Positions 2,287 through 49,936 of a DNA stretch of 64,000 bases are shown piece after piece. The stretch lies in contig NC_088711.1 in NCBI RefSeq assembly GCF_963576615.1, forward strand, positions 9,294,869-9,358,868, given 5' to 3'. The notes beneath the pieces were generated by a model. That model was not told the origin of the DNA. It did not search any database and saw only the letters and a list, made by a program, of their open reading frames with translations. The position numbers were made by a program, and so were the translations under genes. Positions within the stretch are counted from its first letter, which is position 1; each line of letters begins with the position of its first letter. This stretch comes from Watersipora subatra (taxonomy: Eukaryota > Bryozoa > Gymnolaemata > Cheilostomatida > Watersiporidae).

Positions 2287-3184
2287 GTTGGTGTTATGAT
2301 CGGTGATTATATTTATAGACTTTATAAAAACCGCAATAAAATATATGACTTTTTCTAATATATTTTGTCCAAAGCTCATCAAGTGATATTATGAAAAAAT
2401 TTGTTATACTAATATGATCTGTCCTGTATTATCAATAGCATACTTTCTCTTTAGAGTATCTGGCATGGAAAGTGGAGCATTAGCTGACATTCGTCAGCGA
2501 TACAACGCTTTGCTGCCTCCCATCATGGTTCCGTATTCTTTTGCATTACCGTCTCCCGTATCGGCAGCATCTCTGCTATCTTGTGTACCAACAAATATGA
2601 GAGGCTCTTTTCCACTAGTTCATGAGCTCTCTCCGCAATCAGCCCAGTCAGATCCAAAGCCAAACCATAGTTACATCGGGCTCATTGCTATGGCTATTCT
2701 CAGCTCGCCCAAAAGGCAGCTAATCCTCAATGACATTTACCAGTGGATTATGGCAAAATACATTTACTTCAGGACCAGAGGCTCGGGTTGGAAGAACAGC
2801 ATCCGTCATAACCTCAGTCTTAATGACTGCTTCATTAAGTCAGGGAGAAGTCTAAATGGTAAAGGACATTTTTGGACGATACATCCAGCGAATATCGAAG
2901 ATTTCCAAAAAGGTGACTTTCGACGACGCAGGGCACAGCAAAGAGTGAAGCGCTACTCACAGAGATACAACCTTTCGAAAGACGAGTACATTCAAAGCTG
3001 CAGCAGCGAAGATGAACTGCCATCACCAGGAAGCACTAGCAGTGTCTGCCATGGCAGCCATGAATATGCACCTGTGGTGCAGAAGGGAGTCAATGTAATC
3101 ACTTCCCAAAAAAGATGTCCGAAGCCATTTGACATCGAATCTCTTCTCGGGATAAAACAAGCTGATAGCCAGACTCATGATTAG
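2225..3184 (+). CDS. foxQ2: FoxQ2 forkhead transcription factor
   Basis: Two exons, 2225-2286 and 2455-3184, joined across a 168 bp GT..AG intron. The junction codon AGA is split 2+1 and the frame continues, giving 263 aa. The forkhead DNA-binding domain spans about residues 89-187: KPNHSYIGLIAMAIL, then SGWKNSIRHNLSLNDCF (recognition helix) and NGKGHFWTIHPANIEDF. The wing sequence GKGHFWTIHPAN followed by GDFRRRRA is characteristic of FoxQ2 and unlike other Fox classes. Near the C terminus PFDIESLLG (about residues 245-253) resembles an EH1 motif, which recruits Groucho/TLE corepressors. FoxQ2 is a nuclear regulator of the anterior/apical territory in cnidarian and bilaterian larvae. The start is the ATG in exon 1. 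A second ATG inside intron 1 (2414) opens the longest unspliced frame but reads through the acceptor and would replace the first 20 residues by intron. Family is secure; exon 1 is well supported by phase and splice sites but not by transcripts. Confidence 0.92.
2455..3184 (+). CDS. foxQ2: foxQ2 exon 2, carries the whole forkhead domain
   Basis: Acceptor ctctttag precedes AGTATCTGG. The exon runs to TAG at 3182-3184 and holds the complete forkhead domain and the C-terminal EH1-like motif. Confidence 0.93.
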
Positions 3185-8600: not shown

Positions 8601-11600
8601 CAAATAGCGGCACCCGCTATATTCAAGGGTAGGTTATGACTATAGTGAGCTGTCTCAACACCCTTGCAAGTTTAACATCATCATTGCAAGTGATATATCT
8701 GTCTATATGAGCTTATTCCTTATTAAGTACATAATTTGTTAGTCCCTTCCATCCGTCAAAACAAATTAGCATCCGTTAGAGCAGTGACTTGCATCGAATT
8801 CTATGCCACGACAATAGGAAACATCACTTAAAACATGTTGGAAAAAACATCTGCTATTGTTTTGAACCGCGTAAATTAACACACAATTGCAAAAAGGAAG
8901 AAGATGGAAGAAATGGAGTGAGAGAAAATAGATGAAGCGAGTGAAACCACATGATAGTTAACTCATCTGACACTGTTATGTTTAACAAAGACCAAACTAC
9001 TTATTACGGGCATGTTCTAGATTTTCATAACTGGTGCCCATTGTTGTGATTGGATAACTGTTTAAATCTATATATATATTACATATAGATTAGAACAGAT
9101 TATATAGATTCAAAGTTTAAACTATATATATTATATATAGACTAGCCTTTTTATATATATATCTATAGATAAATCTCAGTGTTTGTATGTCTGTGAATCA
9201 GTGTGTCCAGCTATAGCTATTAAAATCTTAGAATAAAAAACTCGATTCACACTGAATTTGAACTCATGAAGATTGCAACCACAAGTTTTTAACCACGCGT
9301 TTAATCACTGAGCTACACAGTCCATAGAATCCTATTGCTCTTATAATACACTGTATACCCTTTTCTCAATTGCGTACGCTAAATGACTTATTAATCGATA
9401 CATTGCGCCTATGCGTTACGATGCCCCTGTTATAAAATGTTTTTTCGCCTAACTGTATGAAACAAGTTGTAGCTGTATGAAAATGTATTTAAAAGTTACA
9501 ATTGTTTAAAAGAAGTTTTGAAAACCTTTGCAGTTGTTTTATTTTTTCTCTTAATTTATTTGAACTGCACAAAACACACTTATACCATGATATAAAGTTC
9601 AAAATGTTGTATATGTTAAATAAAAATAAATTTTTTGTCCAAAGACCTGTTTATTACCCAGGCAGTGCCGGGCATTCACCTAGTATATGTATATACAACA
9701 TAAACTTAATTTAACTAATAGCACACACAGAAATGAACAAGCATCTTTATTTAAAAGTTAGATATTAAATAAATGATGATTTTCTGTGCAAAAGCTTTTT
9801 TATTACCTGTGCCGGGCGTTCAGTAGTCATTTATATAAGCAATCCTCATATGCATGCGCTTTCTTGTTTTCAGCTTCTTTAAAACTGGCGACTCGCTGCC
9901 ACTTCCTGAATTTACGTATGATGAGCACTTGATACGCGCTGTACAACTATTGCAGGTGTATTTCACTTCACCTTCTACATTTTCGCGATCATGTGTGGAA
10001 GGCTGTATAAGCTATATTAAACCGCAACGACAATATCTATATCATTGCACTGTGATACTTTTCTCTTCAAGCTGCAACTACTATATAACTACGACTAACT
10101 GCGACTACTATATCTCTGCTGTTCACCCTTTGATAAAAACCTAACTGGTTGAAACAGTTTAAATTTGAGTCGGTCTGCGAGATGTCTTGAAGCGGATGTC
10201 TTGCAAGCATTTGTTTAACATTTTTCGTGCTGTTGCCTGTCAGTTGTATTGGCAGATTTAGTCTTTCGATCTACAGCCTATGTAGTGTGAACTGCTGCAT
10301 CACGTTTGAGACATTTCTTTTATAACTTCAGTGGTTTTTATATTTAGCACTTTTCACCCAATGAATGTCTGTTGCGAACAATTAGCATTTCTTCGGTGTA
10401 AACAAGAGCTAGTATAAAGCTTCAGTGAAGCCCTTAATTTATTACTCGTATCTCTACAAGTAACGACTTAGTATGATAATCTCTGGCTATCATAGTTTTA
10501 TTTACTCTGTCATCATTACTGCACTCATAGCATTCTCATATTCAAATGTACGCTTCATTTCTAATTACAGTGATTTGAGGAACACTGAACGCCGTTTCAT
10601 TGTGCTTGCTCCTACATTTGTGGGCTATGAACTTTGAGTCTTACAAGAGCAGACGATTTATGCCACTGATAATAATGGTCATAGACAAACCAAAATTCAC
10701 TGTTCTGTTAGTAATTTTTGCAATACAAGAAAACTATCTATGCGGGAGTAGATGTGAAATTAAAAAAGTAAGGTTTCTAGTTGCTATATTGACAGTTTGT
10801 TATGATAGATTGAAATGAATCTACTCACTGGGCAAAGAATTATTTACCATAACTTTAAATAAATACATGTATTATTTTAGGTGGCGAAAAACATGCACAT
10901 TACGAATATTTTTTACCAAGTTTGCTTGTTATTAAAAGTTAAAAGCATAAAATCGGTTAACATTTACAGAAAAGTCAAAAGTCGTGGGCTTCATATAAAT
11001 AAAGCTCAAGGTTGATCCAATTTAGATAACAGAAGATTATATTATTAAAGAATAATCAAACCGTGCAGGAGTTTAAACATGGATTACCTTTGATGTAATA
11101 TTTTTATCCATCTACTAAGCGTATAGGTATTGAAATGAGAAATGAGAAAAGTCATGTTTACAAGTTCTACTGATATTAATCAATAGACAATGGTGGTTTC
11201 ATATTGCTGTTGTCCGCCGGAGAGTATATTCCTCTTAAGTAGGCTTTTGTATCATTGAGTGACACCTGCTTCTCGTGTCACTTTACATCTTTGCATTCCC
11301 TATAGCCAGCATCCTACAACTTTATGCATCGACCATTTTATTATTCTTAATTTATAATCTAATAGAAGGAATCTATGTTCATGTCGTACTAGCGGAAGAT
11401 ATTACTGCCAATGATTGCTTTTAGGTCGATGTGAGAAACTTATCGGCGACATCTTGCTCAGTACATCGATTCTTCCTGTACATTAGCCTTGACACATCGT
11501 CATGGCTTCTCGGCTTAATAGCCATAGAGCGTTTCATAGCTGTGTGTAAGCCACAGCACTACAAGCGACTGAGAACTGCATCTATGGCTCTAAAGGTAGT

Positions 11601-12393
11601 TGGGGTACTAGTGCTTTTGCATGTAGTCTTTAATATGCACGTCTTTTGGACGAGAGGCATTAACTGGATTGAAGTTGAAAATGTGAATGACAACTCGAGC
11701 ACAGTTGAGCTCAACTGCGGCTACACATCGGAGGAATCACGATTTTTTTGGACGCATCATCAAGGCTGGATGGTGTTAGTCTGGTATTGCATCATACCTT
11801 TTACGACTATGCTTGTCCTTGACATTTTTATAATTCAACGACTTTACAAGCTGCAGAGAACATCGCTAAACAGAACGTCTATAAGCAGAACCCACAGTGG
11901 TGTATCTGAAACAGGGCTGGCAAAGCATACCAACTCCATGACCCGAATGTTGTTGACTGTGACCCTGTACTTTCTCATCATAACGACTCCAGTATTCATA
12001 TTCACGATGTGTCAGTCTTTGTTATTTTATAATGACCCAACTGATGGTCGTACGTTAGGAAAAGAAGAGGAAGAAAAGCTCGCACGAATGGAGTTAATAG
12101 ATGCGTCCCTAACTATTCTGCTCTACTTGAACCATTCTATCAACTTTTGTTTATACCTACTAACTGGCCGCAGATTTAGAAGGGAGTTATCTACCATGCT
12201 TAACTGCTCGTGCAACAGGATAGCTAGTACCAGAAGGTTGTCGACTAAGCAGTCGATCAAAGAGACACAAGCCAATGGTACAAACACCAATGCTTATGTA
12301 CAGGTGGCCAGCGCTACCCCAATGCTACCTAGGAGCTTTAATGACACCAACCATTCTACCTGTACGTCACGCATCAATATCTCTGCTCTGTAG
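5363..12393 (+). CDS. Class A (rhodopsin-type) GPCR, probable neuropeptide receptor
   Basis: Two exons (5363-5656, 11425-12393) joined in phase 0 across a 5.8 kb intron give 420 aa. Seven hydrophobic segments are visible: TM1 with GNS (LSIIGNSITF), TM2 with LAVMD, TM3 after the conserved Cys in NLSATSCSVHRF, ERF in place of DRY (IAIERFIAVCKP), TM4, TM5 with the conserved Pro (YCIIPFTTML), TM6 with Pro (IITTPVFIF) but no CWxP, and TM7 NHSINFCLY in place of NPxxY. ECL2 carries Cys in VELNCGY for the usual disulfide and an NSS glycosylation site. The tail has a Cys cluster (NCSCNR) suited to palmitoylation. The NHSINFxLY plus GRRFRREL pattern is typical of FMRFamide/orphan peptide receptors expanded in lophotrochozoans. 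The ligand cannot be assigned. The start is ATG 5363; the upstream in-frame GTG at 5345 is not a plausible start. Confidence 0.88.
9165..9683 (+). mobile_element. Helitron-like non-autonomous element
   Basis: The 3' end has the Helitron hallmark: a GC hairpin (CCCaGGC-agt-GCCGGG at 9657-9672) followed about 10 nt later by CTAG with a T after it (9680-9684). The left part (ataaatctcagtgtttgtat) and the internal cgattcacactgaatttgaa match the second copy at 31490-32730 in order. No Rep/helicase frame is present. The left boundary is approximate because it merges into a TA-rich tract. Confidence 0.55.
9740..9835 (+). mobile_element. Second Helitron-like 3' end fragment
   Basis: ttattacctgtgccgggcgttcagtagt at 9800-9828 repeats the 3' end of the preceding element (hairpin remnant then TAGT). 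It looks like a truncated or partly duplicated copy. Confidence 0.35.
11425..12393 (+). CDS. GPCR exon 2 (ECL1 to C terminus)
   Basis: Acceptor ttttag, then GTC GAT GTG AGA in phase 0. 322 codons lead to TAG at 12391-12393. It holds TM3 to TM7 and the cytoplasmic tail. Confidence 0.92.
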   Translation, partial: VDVRNLSATSCSVHRFFLYISLDTSSWLLGLIAIERFIAVCKPQHYKRLRTASMALKVVGVLVLLHVVFNMHVFWTRGINWIEVENVNDNSSTVELNCGYTSEESRFFWTHHQGWMVLVWYCIIPFTTMLVLDIFIIQRLYKLQRTSLNRTSISRTHSGVSETGLAKHTNSMTRMLLTVTLYFLIITTPVFIFTMCQSLLFYNDPTDGRTLGKEEEEKLARMELIDASLTILLYLNHSINFCLYLLTGRRFRRELSTMLNCSCNRIASTRRLSTKQSIKETQANGTNTNAYVQVASATPMLPRSFNDTNHSTCTSRINISAL

Positions 12394-13645: not shown

Positions 13646-16600
13646 CTATAAGAGGTCAGAAAAGAGTTGACCTCTGATTCATGATCCCACACAGACACCG
13701 CACCAATGAACGTGTTTGTACTAAAGCTAATACTTCAGTGATAGTCTATCAAAGGTAATTGAGATGTATTGATCTGAATTCTACGCAAGCCTAGTAGCAG
13801 TCATAACTCATCAGCAGGTCAATAACAATCAGTTTTAAAACTTCAACTCCTCAGACTTGTTTGCCAGCGGAAGTTATGTTACTATTTTCAAGTCTCTGCT
13901 GAGAGGCAGTAGTTGTCCCCTCCTACGCAGACAATATCTATAAAAATATATGCTAAGCATGGCCTTTACAATTGGTCAAACTATCTTACCAATAGAAGCT
14001 GCGATCAGTTGAGTGACCACACTGTTTTATATTGGGCTAGAAAGTTGCAATTACAGAATTTTACTATTAATAGCATGAATGAAGGAATTTGGTCTTATCC
14101 TGTATGTCAGCTAAGAATACTGGAAACGGTGCATAGTTGAGGTTTGTGCAAATGCTGCTGGAAATACCACATATCAATGCACTGACAGCGTGATATGAAA
14201 AGCTTCAGATAATTAAAAAATTCATTAAAACGAAACCTGTGATTACAAGGCAGTCCTCTCAATTTCATATGATTGGGAGATGTATTTCTAAACTGCAAGA
14301 CATTACTGCCGAGGAAGGTCAGCTCAAGTTTCTTGAGTACATCAAGACAAACTAGCGAGTATCAGTCACCAGAGCACATCATTAGAGATTTATAAATAAA
14401 TACTAAATAATGTATAATAAAGTAAAATAATATTAAATATGTGGAAGACCGCTTTACTGTAGGCTACCAGATAGTAAACGATGCAAGAGACCTTAGAAAG
14501 TAGAGATAATTAGTAATAACAACAACGGGCAGAGAAGTCTGAAAGACAACTTTCTCATCCTCCCGTGCAGGTTGAACCATCAGGATTGCGCTGTGCAATA
14601 CATGAGCGGAACATGAAGGTACTATAGATAAATATGTAACTAAGTGGAGACAATCCCCAACAGAATCTCTAATTATATTAAGACCAAAACCGATCTTTGC
14701 AACTCCTGTGCATTAGCACTAATTTATTTTGCGTTCCAAAAACATTTAGGAAGAAACCCCAGGAGTTCTATGAAACTGCAAACCATTTTTCTCGGAAAGA
14801 GTTAGGATGTTATTAAAGCAAAAAGCTGTTAACGAATGACCTGAAGTCTACACGCATGTAGCCAGAGTCCCTAGAGCCTCTCGCATCAGCCACTTAATAG
14901 TAGTAAATGTATGAATGTAGCGCGTAATGTACGATGCCAGAGCATCATTTGTGTTGGTAAAATAAAACAATCATCAAGTTATCTTCTAACGTAATTTTAG
15001 TCATCAATCGTCAATAAATCGACCGTAACTGGATTGATCGTAAATATTAGTTAATGTTAATAAAGATGAGGTGCAATTAGAGATGAGAGAGCAGAGTACC
15101 CAAACTGTTGCGCTCTCTTTAGGCTCTAACAAACTAGGTGATACGTAGCGCCAATCTGTGCTGGAGCTCGCCTAGCGAGTTGATGCCGAGCAATAATGCT
15201 AGACTTTCACTATTAGAACTTTATCGCACGCAAGATGCATTTTGATTGATTGTTTTTCCCCAGAATTCAATGCTCTGGGGAAAAACAATCAATCGAAATG
15301 CATCTCGCGCGTGATAAAGTTCTGATAGAAAAAGTCTAGCCAGAATGCACTGTTCTGGCTGCTAATTTTTTCGTGTCAATGTTTACCGACAGACAGTAAC
15401 AACATTTTGCTATTTTGTTATGATTAGAAGACCATCAAAACTGAATTGAAAAATTCAATTAAATACCATCGAAATTGACACTGAATTGTTCACAGAGTTT
15501 TTAAGAACACACCCAGTCCTGTACAATATAACACATAAGAATTACAAAGATACCCAGTTGAAAACCAATGTTTGGGAGTCAATCGGGTTGACCATCTTGA
15601 GACTTGAGAATGGTAAATATTCGTTATATTAAAATGGAAAACTACTATAAAGTAAATTGTATATAAAAATCATAAAATATTACCGTTAAAAATACAAGAA
15701 TCATTTTTTTATGTCATCAAGTGTACAATTCGTGAAAGTGAAATAAGGCCTGACAACATAAGCAGATGTTGTTTACATCGTGTCTAGAAGGAACCATATT
15801 TACTTAAATTTATTAATACATGTAACTCTGAAGAAACTGGTGATACGTAATTTTATTGGCTGTTTCTGAGCCTGCCTGCGTTATGGTTCGCTGGTGAATC
15901 GCCCAAGTGTGTTTAAGCACACGCCAGCGATATCTCCGCACTCATAACACACGCGATAAAATCACCTAGTGTGTTTGCACCTTAACACTTTCAATCTACA
16001 CAGTAAGTCTTTTTCAAAATATCAGAATTATTCGTGTATTTGTGAAACGCGTATGTGTAAGAGAAACCGATTTCATATCTGATCAAGGAAGCACACTAAG
16101 TATTATGGGAGAGGGGTGACAAGTTAACAAAGACACTAGAGGGGATAAATATCTATGTCTGTACCAACCTAAACCACCTCGGTTGGTATCCTGACCCGCT
16201 CGATTCGCGAATCTTTCTTGCCTCCCTCTGCAATTTCTCTACCCTCTGCTTTTCAGATTCAGCCTGCTCAATCATGCCCTCCTCTAGCATCCTACAGAGA
16301 GATGAGAAATCTAAGGCTATTCTAGCTGACTGACTCTCTGCTGCTTGAACTGCTAGTTGCCAGAATTCACCAAAGTTACACACAAAACCAATTTTCAATC
16401 TAGTTCACCAACTATAGCAATATCAACTATAGCAATATCAACTATAGCAATATCAACTATAGCAATACCAACTATAGCAATATCAACTATAGCAATATCA
16501 ACTATAGCAATATCAACTATAGCAATATCAACTATAGCAATATCAACTATAGCAATACCAACTATAGCAATATCAACTATAGCAATACCAACTATAGCAA

Positions 16601-19600
16601 TATCAACTATAGCAATATCAACTATAGCAATACCAACTATAGCAATATCAACTATAGCAATATAAACTATAGCAATACCGACTATAGCAATACCGACTAT
16701 AGCAATACCGACTATAGCAATATCAACTATAGCAATACCAACTATAGCAATATCAACTATAGCAATACCAACTATAGCAATATCAACTATAGCAATATCA
16801 ACTATAGCAATATCAACTATAGCAATATCAACTATAGCAATATCAACTATAGCAATATCAACTATAGCAATATCAACTATAGCAATACCAACTATAGCAA
16901 TATCAACTATAGCAATACCAACTATAGCAAAATCAACTATAGCAATATCAACTATAGCAATATCAACTATAGCAATATCAACTATAGCAATATCAACTAT
17001 AGCAATACCAACTATAGCAATATCAACTATAGCAATACCAACTATAGCAATATCAACTATAGCAATATCAACTATAGCAATACCAACTATAGCAATATCA
17101 ACTATAGCAATATAAACTATAGCAATACCGACTATAGCAATACCGACTATAGCAATACCGACTATAGCAATATCAACTATAGCAATACCAACTATAGCAA
17201 TATCAACTATAGCAATACCAACTATAGCAATATCAACTATAGCAATATCAACTATAGCAATATCAACTATAGCAATATCAACTATAGCAATATCAACTAT
17301 AGCAATATCAACTATAGCAATACCAACTATAGCAATACCAACTACAGCAATACCAACTATAGCAATACCAACTATAGCAATATTAACTATAGCAATACCA
17401 ACTATAGCAATATCAACTATAGCAATACCAACTATAGCAACACCAACTATAGCAATAGCAACTATAGCAATATCAGCTATAGCAATACCAACTATAGCAA
17501 TATCAACATAGTATAACAATTTAAAATAAATATTTTTTTGGCGGATTAACAAAGAGATTTCCAAAGGAATGGAGCAAGAAATTGAGAGACTGCATACCTC
17601 TGGTCCGGCCTGAACCTTGTATCTGTTCGAGGAAGATAACTCGACTCCTCCTCCCGAAGCTCATTCAGCTCAATAGCAAACCTTGTGAAACCATAGTAGA
17701 GCTCACAGTCCTCGGGCATATTGCCTACAACAATGAGTGTCACTTATCGACATCTTTCCTCCATATTCACAGGTTATGCGCATGATAGCGGATTGCACAA
17801 CGCAATCTGTTCGCGATAAGTTCTTGGCTTATTCTATTGCCTCAGGATGTCATTTGATGTCCCATGAGGCTGTGATGCCAACCAAACAAAGAAGCTATCA
17901 CTTGTTAAAAACATTGCCTGAATTAGCTAGAATTTAGAAAAAATAGCTGGAGAATGGCAACTTCAAATGGTTATAGCACACCCTAGGATAATCTTAGGGA
18001 AGATGATTATCCGAAACTCGTTACATATGGTACTTGAGGGTCCGACAAATTCATTTGTTTTCTAGAAACTCATTTTTAAAGAAACTCGTAAAAACATGAT
18101 ACTATGTTGATATCTCAAAAACACTTCCACATCCCTTCAATCATTTGCATAGTAGGAGAGAGGGTTTTCAATTTCATGTGAAACAACAATTTAGCTAATT
18201 TGCTACTTGAGGTGGCAGCAAGGAAATAAGTCAATTGGTTCACCAGCAATTACCATATCAGTATTGAATGTTTAAAAGCCTCCATTCTACATTCTACAAG
18301 TGTAGCTAGCAGCTCGCGGTAAGTGCTTACACACCCATTACAGATACATCGGAATGAATTGCAGTTACCTGCCCTCCAGATGCATCGGTTGGCTTGTTCA
18401 TCTGTCTTGCAGTACAGAGCTTCAGTCCATTTACCAAAGAGGTAAATCTGCACTTCCCCATCAGGACCTGTTACGGTGCCATGAACCTCGTGCTTCTTAT
18501 TTGACCAATAGCTCGCCTGGATCGAAATACCGATATTTACACAAGCTGCTAGGATAAATATTATTTGAGCTGATGTTGAACATTTGCTAGTTATATTTCT
18601 GTTTGTTTGCCTGTTTACATATAACATTTTATCAATTCTATCAGGTTTCAAGTTTAACAGATAAACACACTGACAGACAAAGGGCTCTGTTCTCCCTTTA
18701 GTCAGGTAAATTTTCATCTCTGTTGAATGATACCCTCAGCATACGTAGACAATGTGCAGCCTTTGATATAGCAGCACCTGAAATTTCATCAAAGAGCTCA
18801 GACTAGAATGAATATTATACTCTGACAAAGTTCATGATGCAGGTATCTACTTGTAAATGTGATTGCAAGTACACCATGATATAATGCTGATATCTCAGGC
18901 GTGCAATTCCTTGTAACACATTGAAGGCCTGACCAAGGACAAGCAAGTGCATTGCTTAACTAGAACTAATATTGATCGCGAGAGATTTCAGGCTATAAAA
19001 TGAAAAGCTAACCATCATCTTTTTTAGTTCGAATTCGTATGGCCTTTCCATACACGAGTAACAAGTAATATGTACTATGATTTCCTACTATGGCTCAGTA
19101 GATAACCAAAGTGAGATAAACAAAAATAGCAACATTCATGAGCTAGAAATTAAACCATCATGATCTCTTGTGGGACATTTGAAGGGCCACACTTATAATT
19201 TAAGTCATTTGTGAGACCACGCTTGTAATATAAGACATTTGAGAGACCACACTTGTAATATAAGTCATTTGAGGGACCACACTTATAGCATAAGACATTT
19301 GAGAGACTACGCTTGTAATATAAGACAATTGAGGGACCACACTTGAAATATAAGACATTTGAGGGACCACACTTGTAATATAAGACATTTGAGAGATCAA
19401 GCTTATAATATAAGACATTTGAGAGACCACACTTGTAATATAAGACATTTGAGGGACCACATTTGTAATATAAGACATTTGAGGGACCACACTTGTAATA
19501 TAAGACATTTGAGAGATCACACTTATAATTTAAGACATTTGAGAGACCACATTTGTGATATAAGACATTTGAAAGACCACACTTGTAATATAAGACATTT

Positions 19601-22600
19601 GAGAGACCACACCTGTAATATAAGACATTTGAGAGACCACACTTATAATATAAGACATTTGAGAGACCACACTTGTAATATAAGACATTTGAGAGACCAC
19701 ACTTGTAATATAAGACATTTGAGAGACCACACTTGTAATATAAGATATTTGAGAGACCACACTTGTAATATAAGACATTTGAGAGACCACACTTGTAATA
19801 TAAGACATTTGTGGAACCTCACTTGTAATATAAGACATTTGAGGGACCACACTTGTAATATAAGACATTTGAGAGACCACACTTGTAATATAAGACATTT
19901 GAGGGACCACACTTGTAATATAAGACATTTGAGAGACCACGCTTGTAATATAAGACATTTGTGGAACCACGCTTGTAATATAAGACATTTGTGGAACCAA
20001 ACTTGTAATATAAGACATTTGTGGAGCCTCACCTATAATATGAAATATTAGAGGGACCACACTTATATAAATGAGTAACAAAGCATCCGTCTATCACAAT
20101 TTATTCCTAGCAAGAACAAGCAAAACAAGCACTCACCTACACATATCACAATCAACAACTGAAGTGGCATGAACATCAGCTCTACATTGTATGTCAAAAG
20201 ATGTGTGACCCAATTGTTTAGTAAAAAAGGTGACAAAGGATTTCTTAAAACTCCTTTTAATCAGACGCTACTGTAAGGGTGGCTAAAAAACTCTTCAACC
20301 AATGGACTGATTCCAGCCCTAGCAAATAAAATAATAGCCAACACTAAATAGCAGAAACATATATAACAGTAGAAGCACCTATTACAGCTTATATAAACAT
20401 AATCATACATGTATTGATTGAAAAACTAACTTCAATTTTATAATTAGGAGTTGTCTACCTATTCAGTACGCATGAAAGATAACTGCTATTTAAAACGCAG
20501 AGTTCAAGTTCAACAAAAGTTCATTTATTTATACTTAATGCCAAGAGCTTTAGTGAATTGACCTCACATGCAATGTGACACAGTCAGATCTGTAATCTGA
20601 GGCCTAATCTATTTGTGATAACTGCCATACTCATGAGCCAATTGAAACTACATATGGAACCTGCTAATATGGAGATATTTTAAAGCTGCAGCCTGTGTGA
20701 CAACCTGCATCGGTTGTTAGGGGCATGGAGTAGAAAACATACCTTAACAAATGTAAGCTTGCATATAACGTCTTTGCATGAAATATTCATTTCTCCATAC
20801 TGGTCAACCCAGCGCTGCCCAGCAAGCACATTGTGTACACAGGCTGTTACCTTCTTCCATTTATACGTCTCGTCATGCCTGTAATGTACACAACAGTAAC
20901 CTATAGAGCTATTTCTTCATAGAGAGTCAATGATATGCACAAAGGTTACCGTGAAATGAAACTCGTATACTTCAAATCAGTAACACTTTTTTAATTAAAA
21001 CCTTCCCGATGAGGACTTTCGGTATGCTTTGTAGGGAAAACCTTACATCAAAAAACCTCTAAGACGACATCAATAATCAGCAAGAACATAGCGCAAAGGT
21101 TGGTGCAAAACAATCACTTGCAAAAGACAATGATACAATGTAAATAGCAGCGATTGTATTTATTCATTTATTAAACATTTATTATTTATGCAATGGTCAT
21201 CAGCTATTAATTGAGAGCGGGCAACTTCCCGCTAGGAATAAACTATGGATTTTCTAAAAGGTCAAACGTAAGTTCAGAGTGAGAAGCTTGTTAGCAAACC
21301 TAAAGTAGCTGGCTAATGGCCATCTGGTTGAAATCGCCGACTGCTAAAATGCTAATGTTAGTCTAATCACACGCCAGATACAGACTCATTGGGTACTAGA
21401 AGCAAACAACTCAAATGACAAGCTATGGCACTATAGTCAATTAAAATGATGCAATAGCTTGTGAGTCATAACAGTTCCCAAAGTGTAGTAGGAAATACTG
21501 AGTCACACTAGAGACTCACCCTGGTAGATATACTGAAATACTGAGTCACACTAGAGACTCACCCTGGTAGATATACTGAAATACTGAGTCACACTAGAGA
21601 CTCACCCTGGTAGATATACTGAAATACTGAGTCACACTAGAGACTCACCCTGGTAGATATACTGAAATACTGAGTCACACTAGAGACTCACCAAGGTATA
21701 TATACTGAAATACTGAGTCATACTAGAGACTCACCCTGGTAGATATACTGAAATGCCTCCAACAGGATGGACTTCCATCGATTTACCCCAGAATTTAGTT
21801 TTAGCTCTGCAGTCTTGCTTGAAGATGAAGTTTTGGGAGTCAGCGTGGCACACGGATATGGGTGGGTGATGAGATACCTAACAAATAGAAGGCCCATCAG
21901 TACATGACCAGATGTAGAAATCAGAAAGCACCTTACCTCAACTGTTATCATAGGTATTAATACGACAAGCCGTAGGCATGGCAGAAACTGTGTATTGATT
22001 ACAATCGCCCTTTAATCGTAAGCTGCAATCTACCTGAGTTCTAGACTCAATTAGTAACAGAACACAACAGTTAAGACTGCGTATGAGTTCTCATAAATAC
22101 AAATGGCGTATATGAAATACTCAACAAGGTACATTAATATCATGTTAGGGTCGGATAATATTATTGGCTAGTTTATCTCGAGCTATACTAATTGATAGAA
22201 ATGAATTGCTCTGTAAAAGCTGGAAAGAGAAACGAAAGTTATCTGAACCCCAAGTTCCCTCGGAAAAGCTAGGAGTAACCCATAGAGCAATCCATAGAGT
22301 AATCCATAGAACAATTCATTGAGCAATCCAAAGAGTAATCATAAAACAATCATTGAGCAATTAATCAAACTTCAGTGAGACAATAGCTGAGTAAGATTAA
22401 TAAAATGTGTAAACTTAAACTACAAAACAGACTTTGCATCATGCTAAAGGCTGACAGACAAGCAAAGAGTAATGGACAAGAGTATATCATACACTCATTT
22501 ATGTTTACCAAGCAGTTAGTTCAACATTTTAAAATGTCTTCACCTGATATCTAGTAAAAAAGTCGTAAGGCTTTTCTAAAATATGTGCCAAGAAAACCAT

Positions 22601-25600
22601 AGAAAGGTAAACAGGAAGGAATGAATACAAATTGCTAGTAAGAGCAGAAAGGAAACATGGAAATGTGTGAACCAAAGCTACTTAGTCTGGAAAAAGACAT
22701 TAATACCACCTGCCAGCTCAACACCTGCTGATGCTGACATGAAACTTGCTAGCAATGGCATGGCACCTGCCCACCTGTTAGCAGTGGTTCACCACATTTC
22801 AGGGGTAGAATGTCACATGTCAGCAGTAGCATAACCCCTGTCAGAAGTGGCATGACACTTGCTAGTACTGGCATGACACGCTGATATCATGTTGTTATCC
22901 AGATCACTTAACGGGAGAACAAGGAAAATTAACAAGGAAAAAGGCCAGTGCATCTAAAGCAATGGAGAGAAAACCTGCGAGTGATATTACATCTTCTTTG
23001 GATGATCAGCCAGAACTCTTCCAGCTTCGATGGTTGTACACCTAACTTTTCACACCTTAAATTCTCTTGACTAAACTGAACAAACCTCGAGGGAGTTATC
23101 GTCTCTGCTATCAATGATAACAATACCAACCTGCTCAGCCACAAACTTCCATCCTTTATCCAGTCGTATGCACTCGTATGTTTCACCAAGGATCGGGTTA
23201 AAGGGCTTTGTAGCGGCCCGAGTGTTGCAGGAGGCGTATGAGCTGACGGCAAAGGCAGCGACATAAGCCATTCTCTCATAGGGGTCACTGAAAGAAGCTG
23301 CCTTGTCGAGCAGGTCTGAATACTCTAGTTCTTCACACATAAGCTACAAAGAGAAGGCAACTCCTATAACACTCATATAGAAACTGCAACTGCTGACTAA
23401 TGGAATAGGCTCCCAGATCATGTACGTAACATAAAAAACTACATATCTTATAAACACAAAATGAAAGCATCGCACTTAAAATACTTCTATGGCTAGACTA
23501 TGTGATGCGATGATATTAATTCTGATATTGGAATTGTGATACTACGCATTAAACTTATTAAGTTTAACTATTTTATATGTTCACCATTGATTACAATATT
23601 ATTATTTTTATCTCGTCATGGCCTATTTTTCTTATTTCCGTGACTCAATTTGTGCAGATTTTAAAGCTTCTAGCGAACACGCAAGGATTTCACACTTATT
23701 GTTAATTTATCAAGTGTTACAAATAAACTATCATTATAAATGATATTGTAGCAAACTCGTGCTAATGCTACTGACATTGAACAAATAATAATGTAATGAT
23801 GCTAACAAAAACAATATTTATGTGTAAGTATAGTGTATATGCGCTGTATGTATAAGTACAGCGTATATGTCTTGCATGTGTACATGTGACATTTAAAAAA
23901 TTAGCTACACAACTTTTATATCTGTAAAAATAACGCTACTAAATTTTTGGAACTCTTTTGAATTGCTGGAGCAACATTCAGATTGTATAGTGTAGAAGAG
24001 TAAATGCATAAATGTTTTATAATCTTTGCTCAAATTCAATGAACACAAATTCTAATGAACTTTTCTATTTATTTGAAATGCTTTGAAACCATGTGAAATG
24101 TGAAACCATGTGAAATGTGAAACCGTGTGAAATGTGAAACCATGTGAAATGTGAAACCGTGTGAAATGTGAAACCGTGTGAAATGTGAAACCGTGTGAAA
24201 TGTGAAACCTAGCTCTTCACATTTCAAAAAATCTTATGAATGTCTTTATCCTTAATTGCTTTGAATGTTATTTTCTAAAAACGTAACAAAATTTTAAAAA
24301 TGTCAGTTGCTTGTTTCTGATTCTGTAAACCTACAACGTATCAGCGAACAGCGCAAATACTACATATGATAATCATCAGAGAGAATATCAGTAAAATTTT
24401 AATGAAATCACTTACTAACTAGTTTAGCAAATGCGATTACTTTCATAAACAAGACGCACTGAACACTAATTGTAATAAACACTAATCAACTTTTGCAGAG
24501 TGAGATAAGCAATGACCTCTACTGCAGTCCTAATGCTGTAACATATTTATCATTAGCGAGTTAAAGGTGTGTGATTTACAAAACTAGCTGTACACTCCTT
24601 AGAATTACATTCATGTCCTTTCTAACAGCTGAATGTGTGCTTTCATTTGAAGCGGTAAAAAATAAACACATTAAACAATAATAGCAGCTAAGCAGCCGAT
24701 GAGGCAGCACTTGTATTTATCTTAGCTGCCATGACAGGATAAGGCATGAAACCTGTAAACAATGAATACCGCTAATCACTAACTTAAATCATACGATAAA
24801 CAGGAAAGCTTGTTTTATTTCACTAAAAAAAGTACAGAACAGTGAGAAATAGAAAAAAGGTAGGTGTAAGGAGGATCCACACAAACAGTAGCATAGCTGG
24901 CCATGGTGCTGGGCCCTGGTTAGTAGTTAGATCAGGGGTGTCCAAACTTTTTGCAAAGGGGGCCAGACTTGACGTATTAAAAATTTAGGGGGCCAACCTT
25001 GGCGGGCATTTTTTTACCTATAACAGCAATTAATTTAAATAAATTTTACCGAGCCAATCTGTGTTTCATATTTGCTTTTTTATTTTAATTTCAGCTATCT
25101 TGAGCATGTGTTTTGGTTCATTTGAAACATGCATATCAAAATTGCATTGACATTATAATTGAAATTTAACAATAACTAGACTTCAATTTTTTAACACTAA
25201 CTTTTTTGTAACAGTTGAAAAGAAGTAATAGTATTCTTGGGTACAAATTAGATTTGAAACGTGAAACAATATCTCACTATGACTGTTTAATATTTATAGA
25301 ATTGTTAAACACAATTACAGAAAAATGAACAAGTACTAGGCATATCAACAAGTGCAGGGCTCATTTAAAATATGACAGTAACTATAAATGTTGATTGAAT
25401 TTTTAAATGTTTAACACGCAGGTAACAGCGCTTCTGCCCAATTTATTAACCTTTTGAACCGTGGTCGTTTTTGTCAGTGGTGTCAGTAACCCTAAGCAAT
25501 CTGTCCCACGATCCTAAGTTTTTAAATTTTATTTAATATAACCTAAACATGATCATAATGCAATGATATTTGGTAAAACATTAGTAAAATGGTCAAGCAA

Positions 25601-28600
25601 CCCACAGCAAACGTCATCAAACAGAAAAAAACAGTGCGTCACCATTATTTGGGCCCAACACTATAAAAGTTCGAACGATTTTGAAAACTCGTAAAAACAT
25701 TTACAGTAGCATCCTACCCATTGAGCACATGTTCATCATCATTTCATGACTCAAAATATACTGGAAAATTATAGCTAGTATCATAAAATTCTTTATTTGC
25801 ATCACAATCATTTATGACCTACCAACGAATGAGTCGTATCAAATTTTTTCGCGATACCGTTCTAATAAAATTCGTATTAAATCAAAGGAAGGGAAGATAT
25901 TTGAAAACTGTTACAAATGGATGAGACATTTCTGGTCAAACATCCTGTGCAAGAATTAATCTGATTGGTTTATGCTGTTACTTAAAAACTGCTTTTGTAA
26001 ACAAAGCCATGTGAATGCCAGAATTCCAGCCGTTAGGGATTTTGACACACCCTACGCAATGCTAGAAAATCGGCCGTTAGGGTTCAAAGGGTTAATTTTA
26101 CAGGCGGGCCAGACGTTATTGATTTTATGACAGAAGTTGCAAGCCTGATGAAAATTGACCCTGGGCCGCATTTGGCCCGCGGGCCGGACTTTGGATATGT
26201 CTGAGTTAGATAATTCATTTTGATGAAAAAATACACTATGACTATTCAAGTGGATCGAGGAGGTGTTGCTTGATCCTTGATTTGAAGTGATTAAACTTGC
26301 TTATTTTTCAGAGGTTAGTTGTGTAGGTTAACGGTGTTGAAGTTAGTACGCGTGTTCTACAATAGGGCTAGAGAAGACAACTCACCAGCCCATTTGGCCT
26401 ACAACAATAATGGACTGAAAACAATGTTGGTTACCTGCAAGGTGTTGAGAGGCTCATTCAGCGTGACAGGCATAGATATTCGTGTTAGATCCTTTCCTAT
26501 GTTCTTGGATAATATTGAGAACAGCCCAGAATCATTCAACGACATAGGTGCAGGGAGGGTTGACCTCCGTCCCGTATGATACATGTCGGAAAGCAAGCTC
26601 TCTCTATCATCTATTACTACAAAAATGAATGTTTGACCAGCATTATTAATCAACTCGTTAGAAAAGTAAAAGTCTTAAAAACTGAAGAACTGTCCAGGTA
26701 CATGCAGGATGAACTAGAAATTAACTAATATAGAACAGAGTCATCTGTAGTTGTGACTAGTCAAGCTAAGAGATGAATCCGAATGCACCACTGTAACTAG
26801 GACATCTACTCATAGTCTACTCACAATGTGCTCATTCTTAGGTTATAGGTTATAAAACTGCTGCCAATACTACTTACCCATTTCCTCTGACATGCCTGTC
26901 TCTACCTCATGGTCAGAGAAACTACTGCTCGACGAGTCAGAACTCTGAAACAAAAGTATAAAGGGGGATGAGTGCGGAGAGACAAGATGAGAAAAAAGAG
27001 AGAGGAGAGTGTGGAGTGGACAGACGATGGTAGAAAGAGCATGAGTGCAAGTGAGAAGGAAGATCGTAACGAAGAGAGAGGGAGTACAAGAGAGAGAAAA
27101 GCGATTGTAAAAAGAGAGAGTTTGAGAGAGAAGAGATTTTAAAAGTGAGAGATTGGAGAGGAGAAAAATTGTAAATAAGAGTGAAAGAAACAGGTGAGAG
27201 ATTGTAAAGATAGGAAACTAGAGAAAAGTGTATGGGAAATACAGCATAAAAAGCATAAATTCATTGTTTATCTTACTCAGGAAACAAAGGCAAGAAAACC
27301 AAGAGTGTTTCGATACAAAGAGACTATCAAGCACACACTGAGCTCCCTAACTTCACCTTCCACACAAACCTCTGATATTATATTACAACTTACAACTGTA
27401 GATGCGGCGTCATCATTCGTTCCTTCCTCAGCATCATAAAACATGTCACTGGCTTTACTGCTCAGGGAGTGTGAGCGGTTTACATTGCTTCGAAGAAGAG
27501 AGTTTCGCTAGGAACAAAAGTGCTGACTAGTCTGAGAGCAGCGAGTAATAAACAATAAAACATTCTCATAGATTGGAAGCATCGATAAATCCATAGCAAT
27601 AATACTTACATGAATATTGAAAAAAAGTTGCCAAAGACTGACGTAAAAAAGGCTTTAATAAGTCTAATTAATGAAAAAAAGTTGCAGACCGATAAAACGC
27701 TAGAATAAGCTGAATCAGTTGAACTGTAATACATTCAGTTCATGGTCAAGTTTAAATATTTAAACAATTTACAGAAATAACTTAGAAAAGCACAACATTG
27801 CAGCTCGATAATGATCATAACCAAACAGAAAAACAAACAACTAAGGCTAACCTTTTCTTGGGTAGGAGAGGGAGGCAAAGATATCTTACTAAAGCCCTCC
27901 GTTACATTCTCAGTCACAACCATGCCTCCACACTGTTGGAGTCGCATTTTGAGCTCTTCATTCTGTTTGCAATACTCCTGAATGCACTGTGGAAAAAAAA
28001 AACAATAAATGTTTGATGGACAAAGCCTCGGTGTCATGAATCACGGAGTAAACTGACAGCTAGGTTATGGAGTTTCCCACCATATATAATTTTGAATGAA
28101 CTAGCTGCATGCAGAGCAAAAAGAGGAAACAAAGTAGAGATGAACAACAAACAGACACAGAAAATCTTCAAGGATGGTTGTATTATTTTTGTTTTAGCAA
28201 AATAGCAGTTCATGCAATTTGAAATCCTACCTGTTTTAATGCATATATATAGACTTCATTGTTCTGAGAGTGAGCAGCCCCCAAAGAGCTATCTTGCACA
28301 GCATGTTTTATTCTATCTCTCTCGACTCCAATTCTCTTACTCAGGTTCTTCAGTAATGAGTACACTGCAATATCCGTGTTTATTAAAGCAAAGCAAGAGT
28401 TATCTTCTTGCAAGTAGCAGTTCGACTTGAGAGGACAATTCCAAACATGCACAACTGTTACTGTAACTGTTACCGCTACTGAAATATTGTATCGGTGTAT
28501 CGAACATTACAGTAGAATGACAGATACAGAAAAGATGAGTTTAGAAAATTATGTTTGTTTTGTACTAAGAAGCATTCTGTAACCTAATATTATTGGCTCA

Positions 28601-31600
28601 ATGTTGGGATGCACAGACTAAAACCTAATATTATTCTCAATGTAGGGATGCACAGACTAAAAGTAGCCTTTTAGACTCATAGACTCATAGACTTTTAAAA
28701 CCGTCTAGAAGAACGCGTTACCTTGACGACTTCGGTTGACAAATTCTGAACATAGCTTAAGCTCTTGGATTGGCTCCCGATACAAGCCGAGACTGCTAGG
28801 TCGCTCAGGCCTTTCTGTCTCTCCCAATGTAAACTTTGTAGAAATAGAAGGGTTTGAAGAGCTGTTTTTTCCATTCGCCTAAATAATAACAAAAAAGAAA
28901 ACCTCTATCATTCATAGCCTCACAAACAATCTAATTACTGTTAAAGATGCTCTTATAATCCTAGGAGTCATTTGTCACGCCCTTTCTGAGACTTGGCTTG
29001 TTACATGCAAGAGAGGACAACTGACATTTAGATCAAGTGTTTGATGATTCATGCTATTGCTATTTGGTATCAAACTTGGTAGCATTTCTTAGCCTGAGTA
29101 ACACTACAGTTCAAACAATCTAATTGACCTCGATTTTGTTAATTTGTTACTACACAGGAACAGTAAAAAAACTATTACTGAAATGGTCTCCAGAAGAAAA
29201 CAGACTATATGCAAGAGGCGTGTGCAGTGTGACATGTTGTATGTGACATCTTGTATGTTTGATTAGCAGCAGCTAGAGAAGAATTACACACAATAAGAAA
29301 GCCACACTTGGTCGAAATGCAAGTATTTCTAACAAACTATCACAATAGAGCAAATTCACACACTGCTCCCTTCTTAGTATTTTTGTCCTACCAGAGAATA
29401 TGTTTTCTATGTGACGAGTGACAGCAGCCAAGTAATGAAGCCTATAAACACGGACACACAAAAAAGTAATTTATGCTAGTTATGCGACACCTATTGTTGT
29501 AATCTAGTATACCGGCGGCATGATCAGTTCAAAAGCATTTCAATATATCAACCGATTAAGCTTTCAACTTACCGGTAAAACAAACCCTGGTGCATGTCAA
29601 ACTTATCGAACCACAATAGCAGCATTAAGGGCTAACCGGCTGGGCAAGTCGCAATAAAACACAAATTTCAGCGCGAGCGTGACCAAGAGTTCCCTCAATA
29701 CTATGAATAACGACTGCCAGTTTATACATGAAGCTGCTGCTCAGACTTGCTATAGAAAGCTTACAAAGCAGTTTGGCCTCTCGGATACATTCATCCAATG
29801 TCTGTATGGATGTACAACAGAAGTTAGTAGGTTATCTTTTAAGCAATTTGTGATATGATTTAAATCGATTTTTCAATCTGTACTTTTTTTCAATACCTAA
29901 CCAATACGTAACAGACAGTGACAAGCGCTCGTACACAAGTTTTCAATAAGCGGTTCACCTGGACAAACACCTGAGCCAAGTTAACACCCGAGCCTCAAGT
30001 TGCTAGAAATGCTTTATAAATTATTTTGATAAAACAACATTGAGATTTTTATAAAGAAGAAAAAGATTGAAATGTAGCTTTGTTCCGAGACGTTATGCAA
30101 ACCAACAGTGAGCATAGAGCCAGGGCTTTCACTATAATCGAGTTTGTCTTTTAGATTTAGAACTCAATATTGAAGTTTTTCAACTAAATGAATGCAGCAA
30201 AAACCGTATGAGACGTGAGACATAAAATTGATTTTTTCATCCTCGGGGCTCACTTAAAAAAAAGGTTCATAAAAGCCATTGCGGTTCCTTGTACCCTTTT
30301 GGCTGCGCAATAAATCTTGAGCCTACAGTGAGAATGTCTCTTGATTGGAACAACTTCATTGTTTGACAAGTTTTCTCCCGGCAGCACAAGCGCTGACTCG
30401 GCTGGATCGATTAATACCAAGATCTGCAGAGAAGAGCGCTTGGATACAACATAAAATGAGAGCGAGGCCTGAGGATTGGTAGAAACGATATGAGTGAGCA
30501 ACTCTTAAGCCACACAAGAGTGTTGTATACATACCGACTCTTCCATCGGACTCGTCTGCATTAGTAACATGTTAGCTATTGAGAGAGTAGAGCAGCAACT
30601 AACTATATATTGGGAAGCGAAGACAAACATCAAATAATAACTCTTAAGGATAAATCTTTTTCAAATCATTTAAATCTGAAAATCTCTTTGGTCACACAAA
30701 CTGCTGATCAAGGCAAATATGTAGTCGGCCGAAATTGATTTTCCTATTTCAGGAATAAAGTAAACAATCACTTCCAAATACTTGATAAACAAGCAACCAT
30801 CTAAACCACAATCACTTCTTCAAGTAAATTCTCTGTCATGCTTTTGCAAAATAATACAGAGATGATAGGGCCAAGGTATGATAAATTATGCATCCAGCGA
30901 ATAACATAGCCTCTGAATTGCTACGCACACGGACAAGTTACCAGCACCGTCCACCCTCTAAACCCATACTGCCCGTAATACATAGGCTATGAGGTACTAG
31001 ACTCTAAACACATGCTACAACTAAGACACAGGCACTAGGTACAGTCCAGCCTCTAAACTCATATTACAATAAGGTATACGGGCTATAACGTATAGTCCAG
31101 CTTTTAAACACAAACAAGGACTAAAACTAGGCAGGCCTTCCTTACCGTTTCTATTAGCTTGCGTTCCCGCTTATGGGTTGATTTAAATGATAAGATTTTA
31201 CTAATAGATCCTCGCTTGTGTGTCTCAGTGGTAATCTGAGGAGACAACTCCTACAACGCAAATTGTTAACAAGTTAAAAACATCATAAGAAGCCCGATTG
31301 ATAGATAGTGCATATGCTTAGGTAAAGATGATGAGATGAAAGAAGTCTCAATAGCCATAGCTGGGCTCTAGAACTCCTCCGTCAGCAGAGCGTAAACTGA
31401 CGTTTACATGACACAAAGAGTGCAATACATCAAACAGTGAACAGCCAAACAATTATTTAAATATTGCATAATTTATATACATATATGAATAAATCTCAGT
31501 AATTGTCTGTCGCTCGTCTACCCAGTTATAGCAACAACGTTTTAGGAATGAAAAATCCGCTTCACACTGGATTTGAATTCGGAACCTCTAGGTCTTCAGA

Positions 31601-40600: not shown

Positions 40601-43600
40601 TATGAAAAGACGTCAAAGTCAAGGCTAGTGACCGATGCTGGTCTGAGACAGATGCGTGCACCGAACCATGCTAACCTTCCAAGTGTACACCGCTTTACTG
40701 TTGGCAAGATCTCTGACCTAAACATGGCATTTGGAAAATTTTTTGGCTGCTGCTGCGATCATTAGGAACTTGAAGAAACAAGGTTTATGAACTCACTCTA
40801 ATATGACAGACAAAATCATCAGCATCAATATCTATCTTCTTCTGCCTCGGATTGAATGAGATCACGGAGAGGGCAATGTTAATTTTGCCATGATGTCTTC
40901 TCTTTAGGTGCTATAAAGAAGAGGAGTGACTCTTACAATCAACATCAACAGCTAACAGCAAGGTACTTGAAAGATGGATAGAGATAAGAATCTAGTACAG
41001 CGTACAGTGTATACCCTTACAACTCATGTTTCCACCTCTGACCTCAATCACCAGCTAAGAGATTGTATTTTCGCTTTTGAATATGAACTGACAATAGATT
41101 TTTGGTACATGACCACAGTAAATTCTGTTAATAGAAATATACTACTAGACACTTATATTGGTTATATAACTGGAGTGCATTTAAAATACATGATGTTTGA
41201 TATAAACTTAGTATAACCTCACTATATACTTATGTTTAGCGTAGACCTAGTATAACCTCACTATATACTTATGTTTAGTATAGACCTAGTATAACCTCAC
41301 TATATACTTATGTTTAGTATAGACCTAGTATAACCTCACTATATACTTATATTTAGTATAGACCTAGTATAACCTCACTATATACTTATGTTTAGTATAG
41401 ACCTAGAATAACCTCACTATATACTTATGTTTAGTATAGACCTAGTATAACCTCACTATATACTTATATTTAGTATAGACCTAGTATAACCTCACTATAC
41501 ACTTATGTTTAATATAGACCTAGTATAACCTCACTATATACTTATGTTTAGTATAGACCTAGTATAACCTCACTATATACTTATGTTTAGTATAGACCTA
41601 GTATAACCTCACTATATACTTATGTTTAGTATAGACCTAGTATAACCTCACTATATACTTATGCTTAGTATAGACCTAGTATAACCTCACTATATACTTA
41701 TGTTTAGTATAGACCTAGTACAACCTCACTATATACTTATGTTTAGTGTAGACCTAGTATACCCTCACTATATACTTATGTTTAGTATAGACCTAGTATA
41801 ACCTCACTATATACTTATGTTTAGTAAAGACCTAGTACAACCTCACTATATACTTATGCTTAGTATAGACCTAGTATAACCTCACTATATACTTATATTT
41901 AGTATAGACCTAGTATAACCTCACTATATACTTATGTTTAGTGTAGACCTAGTATAACCTCACTATATACTTATGTTTAGTATAGACCTAGTATAACCTC
42001 ACTATATACTTATATTTAGTATAGACCTAGTATAACCTCACTATATACTTATGTTTAGTATAAACCTAGTATAACCTCACTATACACTTATGTTTAATAT
42101 AGACCTAGTATAACCTCACTATATACTTATGTTTAGTATAGACCTAGTATAACCTCACTATATACTTATGTTTAGTATAGACCTAGTATAACCTCACTAT
42201 CTACTTATGTTTAGAATAGACCTAGTATAACCTCACTATATACTTATGTTTAGTATAGACCTAGTATAACCTCACTATATACTTATGTTTAGCGTAGACC
42301 TAGTATACCCTCACTATATACTTATGTTTAGTATAGACCTAGTATAACCTCACTATATACTTATGTTTAGTATAGACCTAGTATAACCTCACTATATACT
42401 TATGTTTAGTATAGACCTAGTACAACCTCACTATATACTTATATTTAGTATAGACCTAGTATAACCTCACTATATACTTATATTTAGTATAGACCTAGTA
42501 TAACCTCACTATATACTTATGTTTAGTGTAGACCTAGTATAACCTCACTATATACTTATGTTTAGTATAGACCTAGTATAACCTCACTATATACTTATAT
42601 TTAGTATAGACCTAGTATAACCTCACTATATACTTATGTTTAGTATAGACCTAGTATAACCTCACTATACACTTATGTTTAGTGTAGACCTAGTATACCC
42701 TCACTATATACTTATGTTTAGTATAGACCTAGTATAACCTCACTATATACTTATGTTTAGTATAGACCTAGTACAACCTCACTATATACTTATGTTTAGT
42801 ATAGACCTAGTATAACCTCACTATATACTTATATTTAGTATAGACCTAGTATAACCTCACTATATACTTATGTTTAGTATAGACCTAGTATAACCTCACT
42901 ATATACTTATGCTTAGTATAGACCTAGTATAACCTCACTATATACTTATGTTTAGTATAGACCTAGTATAACCTCACTATATACTTATGTTTAGTATAGA
43001 CCTAGTATAACCTCACTATATACTTATGTTTAGAATAGACCTAGTATAACCTCACTATATACTTATGTTTAGTATAGACCTAGTATAACCTCACTATATA
43101 CTTATGTTTAGCGTAGACCTAGTATACCCTCACTATATACTTATGTTTAGTATAGACCTAGTATAACCTCACTATATACTTATGTTTAGTATAGACCTAG
43201 TATAACCTCACTATATACTTATGTTTAGTATAGACCTAGTACAACCTCACTATATACTTATGCTTAGTATAGACCTAGTATAACCTCACTATATACTTAT
43301 ATTTAGTATAGACCTAGTATAACCTCACTATATACTTATGTTTAGTATAGACCTAGTATAACCTCACTATATACTTATGCTTAGTATAGACCTAGTATAA
43401 CCTCACTATATACTTATGTTTAGTATAGACCTAGTACAACCTCACTATATACTTATGTTTAGTGTAGACCTAGTATACCCTCACTATATACTTATGTTTA
43501 GTATAGACCTAGTATAACCTCACTATACACTTATGTTTAGTGTAGACCTAGTATACCCTCACTATATACTTATGTTTAGTATAGACCTAGTATAACCTCA

Positions 43601-49909: not shown

Positions 49910-49936
49910 CTTTCATCAAGATGATGACTGTCCTAG

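Follow-up and report, generated by a model that had tools for sequence, protein, structure and literature searches.

A coding exon in the genome of the bryozoan Watersipora subatra ends in a tandem repeat, in which the exon end and the splice donor that follows it recur several times. This raises the question which of the donors joins the exon to the next one, and whether the additional copies have any effect on the transcript. The locus was analysed within a stretch of 64,000 nucleotides (contig NC_088711.1, forward-strand positions 9,294,869 to 9,358,868), referred to as the window, and all coordinates are positions in this window.

Host gene and anatomy of the array

Judged by its sequence, the host is an ORP3-like oxysterol-binding-protein gene on the minus strand. 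Ten pieces of the window were searched with Pfam and six of them, from 16156-23343, match the Oxysterol_BP domain; five of these six score above the curated cut-off, and the piece at 18253-18735 scores below it (25.4 versus 28.9 bits). Six exons of the lipid-binding domain were placed through homology and GT/AG borders, all on the minus strand, and are referred to as exon 16 to exon 21, numbers that serve as labels only. The upstream exon 16 (23131-23343; Oxysterol_BP, 1.4e-29) has the donor CAG gttggtat. The array-bearing exon 17 (21735-21877) is 143 nt long, encodes 48 residues and is supported by its Oxysterol_BP match (2.9e-15), its match to ORP3 and the frame of the six exons. Exon 18 (20743-20878; 136 nt) starts with G CAT GAC, and with it the frame is restored to read LPGHDETYKW. 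It is followed by exon 19 (18369-18516; 148 nt), which was placed by the six-exon frame and by the open frame that scores under the Pfam cut-off, and by exon 20 (17598-17724; 127 nt) and exon 21 (16169-16291; 123 nt), both placed by Pfam and the six-exon frame. For exons 17 and 18 together, ORP3 chains are the best match (5.1e-32), followed by ORP1, ORP2 and OSBP among nine matched sequences. The gene probably belongs to the ORP3/6/7 group. The preliminary description of this locus had positioned the array-bearing exon next to the HHPP block of the lipid domain; the motif is there, but as SHHPP it lies inside the exon, at its own start.

When the six exons are joined via the donor of unit 1 (21734), they form one frame without stops, and this is the only one of the six array donors that yields an open joined frame. 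The array-bearing intron is 856 nt long (21734-20879). Four candidate further ORP pieces (49688-49912, 27738-28040, 28698-28904 and 15224-15361) gave no Pfam match at E values up to 1. The minus-strand frame at 49688-49912 presumably resembles the start of an ORP3-type PH domain, and a long ORP gene from approximately 49.9 kb down to 16.2 kb is no more than conjecture.

Tandem Repeats Finder identified the array at 21492-21754 (period 43 bp, 6.1 copies, 96% matches, score 498), far above chance. Together with a listing of the units, this confirms the earlier observation of a 43-bp unit present six times, five of them in the intron. The array consists of six full units and a partial one of 5 bp; on the minus strand the unit reads ATTTCAGTATATCTACCAGG-GTGAGTCTCTAGTGTGACTCAGT and starts at 21754, 21711, 21668, 21625, 21582 and 21539. 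Unit 1 is made up of the last 20 nt of exon 17 (21735-21754) and the first 23 nt of its intron (21712-21734), which start with the true donor GTGAGT (G at 21734), as indicated by the frame with exon 18. The array is contiguous with the donor of the exon, taking in both the exon end and the donor G. The core of the repeat is indeed a real ORP exon-intron junction, as had been proposed, with an exonic part of 20 nt instead of the 19 nt given before. Unit 2 (21669-21711; donor-like G at 21691) and units 3-6 (21497-21668; donor-like G at 21648, 21605, 21562 and 21519) are intronic, and GTGAGT is found in all six units.

Units 3-6 are identical. Compared to these, unit 1 differs at one of 43 bases (A for G in GTATGACTCA) and unit 2 at three, located at -8, -3 and -2 relative to the donor. 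It had been noted that every intronic unit offers the block TTTCAG-TATATCTACCAGG-GTGAGT and that one unit is mutated exactly at the junction. The exact block is present in four of the five intronic units, and the mutated unit is unit 2, which reads TATATATACCTTG ahead of GTGAGT; its GT is intact. In all five intronic units TTTCAG, 13 nt and GTGAGT follow each other in this order. Past unit 6, the partial seventh unit ATTTC (21492-21496), a possible slippage microhomology, matches the unit start and is followed by unlike sequence.

Further copies of the unit longer than 10 bp were not found in the window by blastn-short. A 26-nt piece had no exact match in prokaryotic and viral contig collections, a search that is little informative given the content of these collections. 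Two further units were considered and rejected as not significant, a degenerate seventh one past the end of the array (shuffle p 0.13, local p 0.08) and an older one within the exon (local p 0.59). An extra TGACTCA is present at 21462-21468, 23 bp beyond the array, in a 9-mer (TATGACTCA) common to unit 1.

Donor strength, RNA structure and predicted products

Donor strength was expressed as the energy of the duplex with U1. The true donor and units 3-6 share a predicted energy of -10.1 kcal/mol, and unit 2 has -9.2 kcal/mol. Positions -3 to +8 of the donor are identical in five of the six units, so that four intronic copies match the true donor exactly. By U1 pairing, none of the other five placed ORP donors is as strong as the true donor (they range from -5.8 to -9.9). 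The near-equal pairing of the intronic copies means that competing donors, as suggested in the preliminary description, do exist in the sequence; a function of the distal donors, as decoys for instance, finds no support, as all five distal products stop at once (see below).

Among the 1279 minus-strand GT sites between 15000 and 33500, 15 score -9.15 or lower. These are the true donor, the donor of exon 16 (23130), the five intronic copies of the array and eight others. Half of these eight (22774, 21936, 20136 and 20032) fall in introns that separate placed exons and seem to be unused; the remaining four may include donors of unplaced exons. As the four intronic sites pair with U1 about equally well, little can be read from the strength of a motif by itself. 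Motifs that resemble strong donors are no rarity in this gene, and it is the presence of five within 215 nt that is special to the array. The site at 21936 (GAG GTAAGG; -10.1 kcal/mol) is located in the intron approximately 59 nt upstream of the array-bearing exon.

Every unit contains a perfect 6-bp inverted repeat (TGAGTC-N8-GACTCA) which covers positions +2 to +7 of the donor. To open positions -3 to +6, unit 1 is predicted to need 5.9 kcal/mol, unit 2 needs 7.05 and units 3-6 need 4.6-5.4. Among the GT sites of 15800-24000, the value of unit 1 falls at the 89th percentile, which means that the site is predicted to be poorly open; the six placed donors range from 2.4 to 7.1. By predicted RNA structure, the true donor has no advantage over its copies. 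Sequestration of the copies in RNA structure was considered and rejected, both because three units folded singly did not depart from shuffled sequences (z -0.16, -0.42 and -0.39) and because the true donor is covered to the same extent as the copies. With no excess of folding and equal cover of the true donor, masking leaves the choice of unit 1 unexplained. Folded as single-stranded DNA, one unit gave a z of about -1 on either strand.

Use of donors 2 to 6 would lengthen the transcript by 43, 86, 129, 172 and 215 nt, respectively. All five distal donors lead to an immediate in-frame TGA (codons CCA GGG TGA, product VYLPG*), because the donor itself makes the stop. The repeat, the junction, the frame and these stops can be read directly from the sequence.

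Origin of the array and expected donor choice

The pentamer ATTTC opens unit 1 in the exon and ends the array in the intron. End homology of at least 5 bp is expected for a random 43-bp segment with a probability of 0.0067 by formula, and was found at a frequency of 0.0098 in 20000 random segments drawn from the whole window, its other repeats included. The presence of ATTTC at both ends agrees with an initial duplication event at short direct repeats, although mutations that came later could have altered the microhomology. The exon is likely the source and the intronic copies its derivatives, because the exonic copy keeps the V.LP pattern that aligns with ORP3.

Tandem repeats are abundant in the surroundings. 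The window contains 24 arrays (27 Tandem Repeats Finder rows less three that overlap) which cover 9344 of 64000 bp, and the stretch of the six exons (16169-23343; 7175 bp) contains four arrays covering 2339 bp. If a 263-bp array is placed at random in this stretch, it hits one of the 12 borders of the placed exons in 33% of cases, so that the overlap with a junction needs no special cause. Its survival at the junction is easily understood if each duplication regenerates the donor. We conclude that the array is a clear but ordinary product of a minisatellite-rich stretch of the genome. In the same gene, an array of 15-bp units (CAACTATAGCAATAT; 16409-17511, 73.6 copies) makes up most of an ORP intron, leaving 117 bp between its end and the downstream exon at 16291-16169. 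An array of 30-bp units (19174-20064, 29.7 copies) is located in the intron between the ORP exons at 20878-20743 and 18516-18369, and the strong donor-like site at 20032 falls inside it. The largest array of the window is found at 41193-44816 (39-bp unit, approximately 93 copies, 95% matches).

The explanation that we consider probable is that slippage amplified the junction, that the exon-proximal donor makes the protein and that the copies are mostly silent. For the origin, the donor choice and the decay we infer the following course. A first slippage or microhomology-mediated duplication between the two ATTTC sequences, of which the first lies in the exon and the second 43 bp further on, in the intron, would have copied the 20 nt of the exon end and the 23 nt of the intron start. 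Later slippage or unequal exchange would have led to six units, with units 3-6 identical. As each new unit carries the whole donor, a good donor would be kept at any copy number and the array would do little damage. The exon-proximal donor of unit 1 would produce the functional ORP mRNA, and the five copies would be mostly silent, with perhaps a few percent of the transcripts lost. Occasional use of a distal donor would add 43 nt or a multiple of it and bring in the TGA at once, and such a transcript would either be subject to decay or give a protein truncated midway through the lipid-binding domain.

The locus belongs to a known kind, minisatellites that span splice donors, and no new mechanism is involved. 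What it adds is a unit that contains 20 nt of coding exon, four copies that match the true donor from -3 to +8 and an instant stop behind every distal donor. A 1995 paper reportedly describes a minisatellite that gives multiple splice donor sites, as worded in its title; the gene is said to be 6-16/IFI6 and the unit a donor-like sequence of 12 bp. Going by that title, the likeness is that several splice donors are supplied to one transcript.

The closest comparison is the VNTR in intron 18 of human ABCA7, which takes in the donor of exon 18, so that both arrays flank an exon and include its splice donor (PMC5954066). In ABCA7 the donor forms the first two bases of the unit, which is 25 bp long, starts at GT and is present in approximately 12 to 427 copies, and polymorphism and isoforms were measured (PMC5954066). 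The ORP unit, in contrast, is 43 bp long with 20 nt of coding exon and has six copies. A cryptic donor one unit further on in ABCA7 leads to retention of one unit, a frameshift and a premature stop, and this form accounted for 2 ± 1% of the transcripts across the tissues examined, independent of VNTR size (PMC5954066). Skipping of exon 19, which was abundant in brain, varied with VNTR size, and stop-bearing transcripts were raised by cycloheximide (PMC5954066). In lymphoblastoid cells three alternative classes made up 14, 2 and 12% (PMC5954066), from which it follows by subtraction that the canonical form led in these cells.

Two other systems also multiply splice signals. In the dual-specific array of the polyubiquitin gene UBC, a splice site is present in each tandem unit and competing use is possible; as far as described in the relevant part of the report, its units are in-frame coding units of 228 nt in which AGGT serves as donor or acceptor (PMC10809524). 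The ORP copies, unlike those of UBC, are intronic, out of frame and stop-bearing. An array of the UBC type was rejected for the ORP locus, as the ORP unit reads CAGGGTGAGT, its 43 nt are not divisible by three and all five distal products stop. In intron gain by tandem genomic duplication, an exonic segment with AGGT is duplicated, which gives rise to a new intron (PMC3443670, in part). The ORP array, unlike this, is an existing donor duplicated into an existing intron, and intron gain was rejected since the copies lie inside an 856-nt intron between in-frame exons.

Human data on decoy donors bear on the choice among the six. According to parts of one survey, decoy donors of comparable or greater strength are rare less than 150 nt from an annotated donor; on the intron side the depletion of GT decoys is negligible overall, and decoys in introns have a lower chance of being used (PMC8964760). 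This lower use of intronic decoys and the leading canonical form of ABCA7 together suggest that mainly unit 1 is used at the ORP locus, with minor products in steps of 43 nt. Against this stands a statement in the Discussion of one paper, that among comparable 5' splice sites the intron-proximal one is favoured on a basis called unknown; taken plainly, it predicts the use of unit 6, not unit 1. The tolerance of decoy donors so near to the true donor is also not fully explained by amplification with mostly silent copies. If splicing relies almost entirely on the donor of unit 1, the locus provides a natural experiment with six near-identical donors which differ mainly in position and upstream context, and it could separate position, exon definition and transcription order from donor strength. 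Should distal donors be in use, the array would be the equivalent of the ABCA7 VNTR in a different animal.

Alternative explanations

The alternative that survives best, although we regard it as unlikely, is that the copies compete for U1 and the spliceosome, that the number of units sets the fraction of VYLPG* transcripts and that copy-number alleles in this way tune the dosage of lipid transfer. The equal predicted pairing with U1 (-10.1 kcal/mol in five of the six donors), the immediate stop from all five distal donors and the intron-proximal preference stated in that one Discussion are consistent with such poison splicing. The 43-nt unit is also larger than the U1 footprint quoted in the same paper (23 upstream and 12 downstream), so that all six donors might be bound at once. 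However, with heavy use of distal donors the gene would lose most of its product, and in ABCA7 retention of one unit was constant across VNTR size and it was exon 19 skipping that varied (PMC5954066). The full version, in which U1 occupies the six donors together, intron-proximal donors sometimes win and the units act as a copy-number dial on the ORP gene, is less probable still. If true, it would provide a natural six-way test of how the spliceosome chooses among identical 5' splice sites.

The sequence TGACTCA is the AP-1 consensus, and its presence in each unit could make the array a homotypic bZIP cluster and a candidate intronic enhancer. TGACTCA or TGAGTCA occurs at 15 places in the window, six of them in the array and one at 21462-21468. 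Tandem duplication, however, multiplies any motif that the unit contains, eight copies are found elsewhere in the window, and the TGACTCA outside the array is not significant as part of a seventh unit, as given above. A regulatory role of this kind is very unlikely. We give the same low weight to a mis-assembled or inflated short repeat; the four identical consecutive units would fit such an artefact, but units 1 and 2 carry private changes and several far longer arrays are present in the same window.

The least probable alternative, at the edge of what we would consider, is the earlier suggestion of microexons, an array of decoy exons in which TTTCAG and GTGAGT define 13-nt microexons in some transcripts. 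The ordered signals in the five intronic units agree with it, and of the subsets computed (one to five microexons taken in order from unit 2) three microexons keep the frame and add 13 residues, but one, two, four or five lead to stops. The introns from a unit donor to the end of the next TTTCAG would measure only 30 nt compared to the normal 856 nt, and the pyrimidine fraction of the unit acceptor (0.53 at -20 to -4) equals the lowest value among the six placed ORP acceptors (0.53-0.76).

Elsewhere in the window, Pfam identified a piece of a Forkhead domain gene (2387-3181, plus strand, 6.9e-34), a piece of a Rhodopsin-type GPCR (11425-12390, plus strand, 7tm_1, 7.7e-21), a fucosyltransferase piece (58530-58748, plus strand, Glyco_transf_10, 1.4e-14) and an RVT_1 piece (61673-62548, minus strand, 2.5e-16), the last of which is probably derived from a retroelement.
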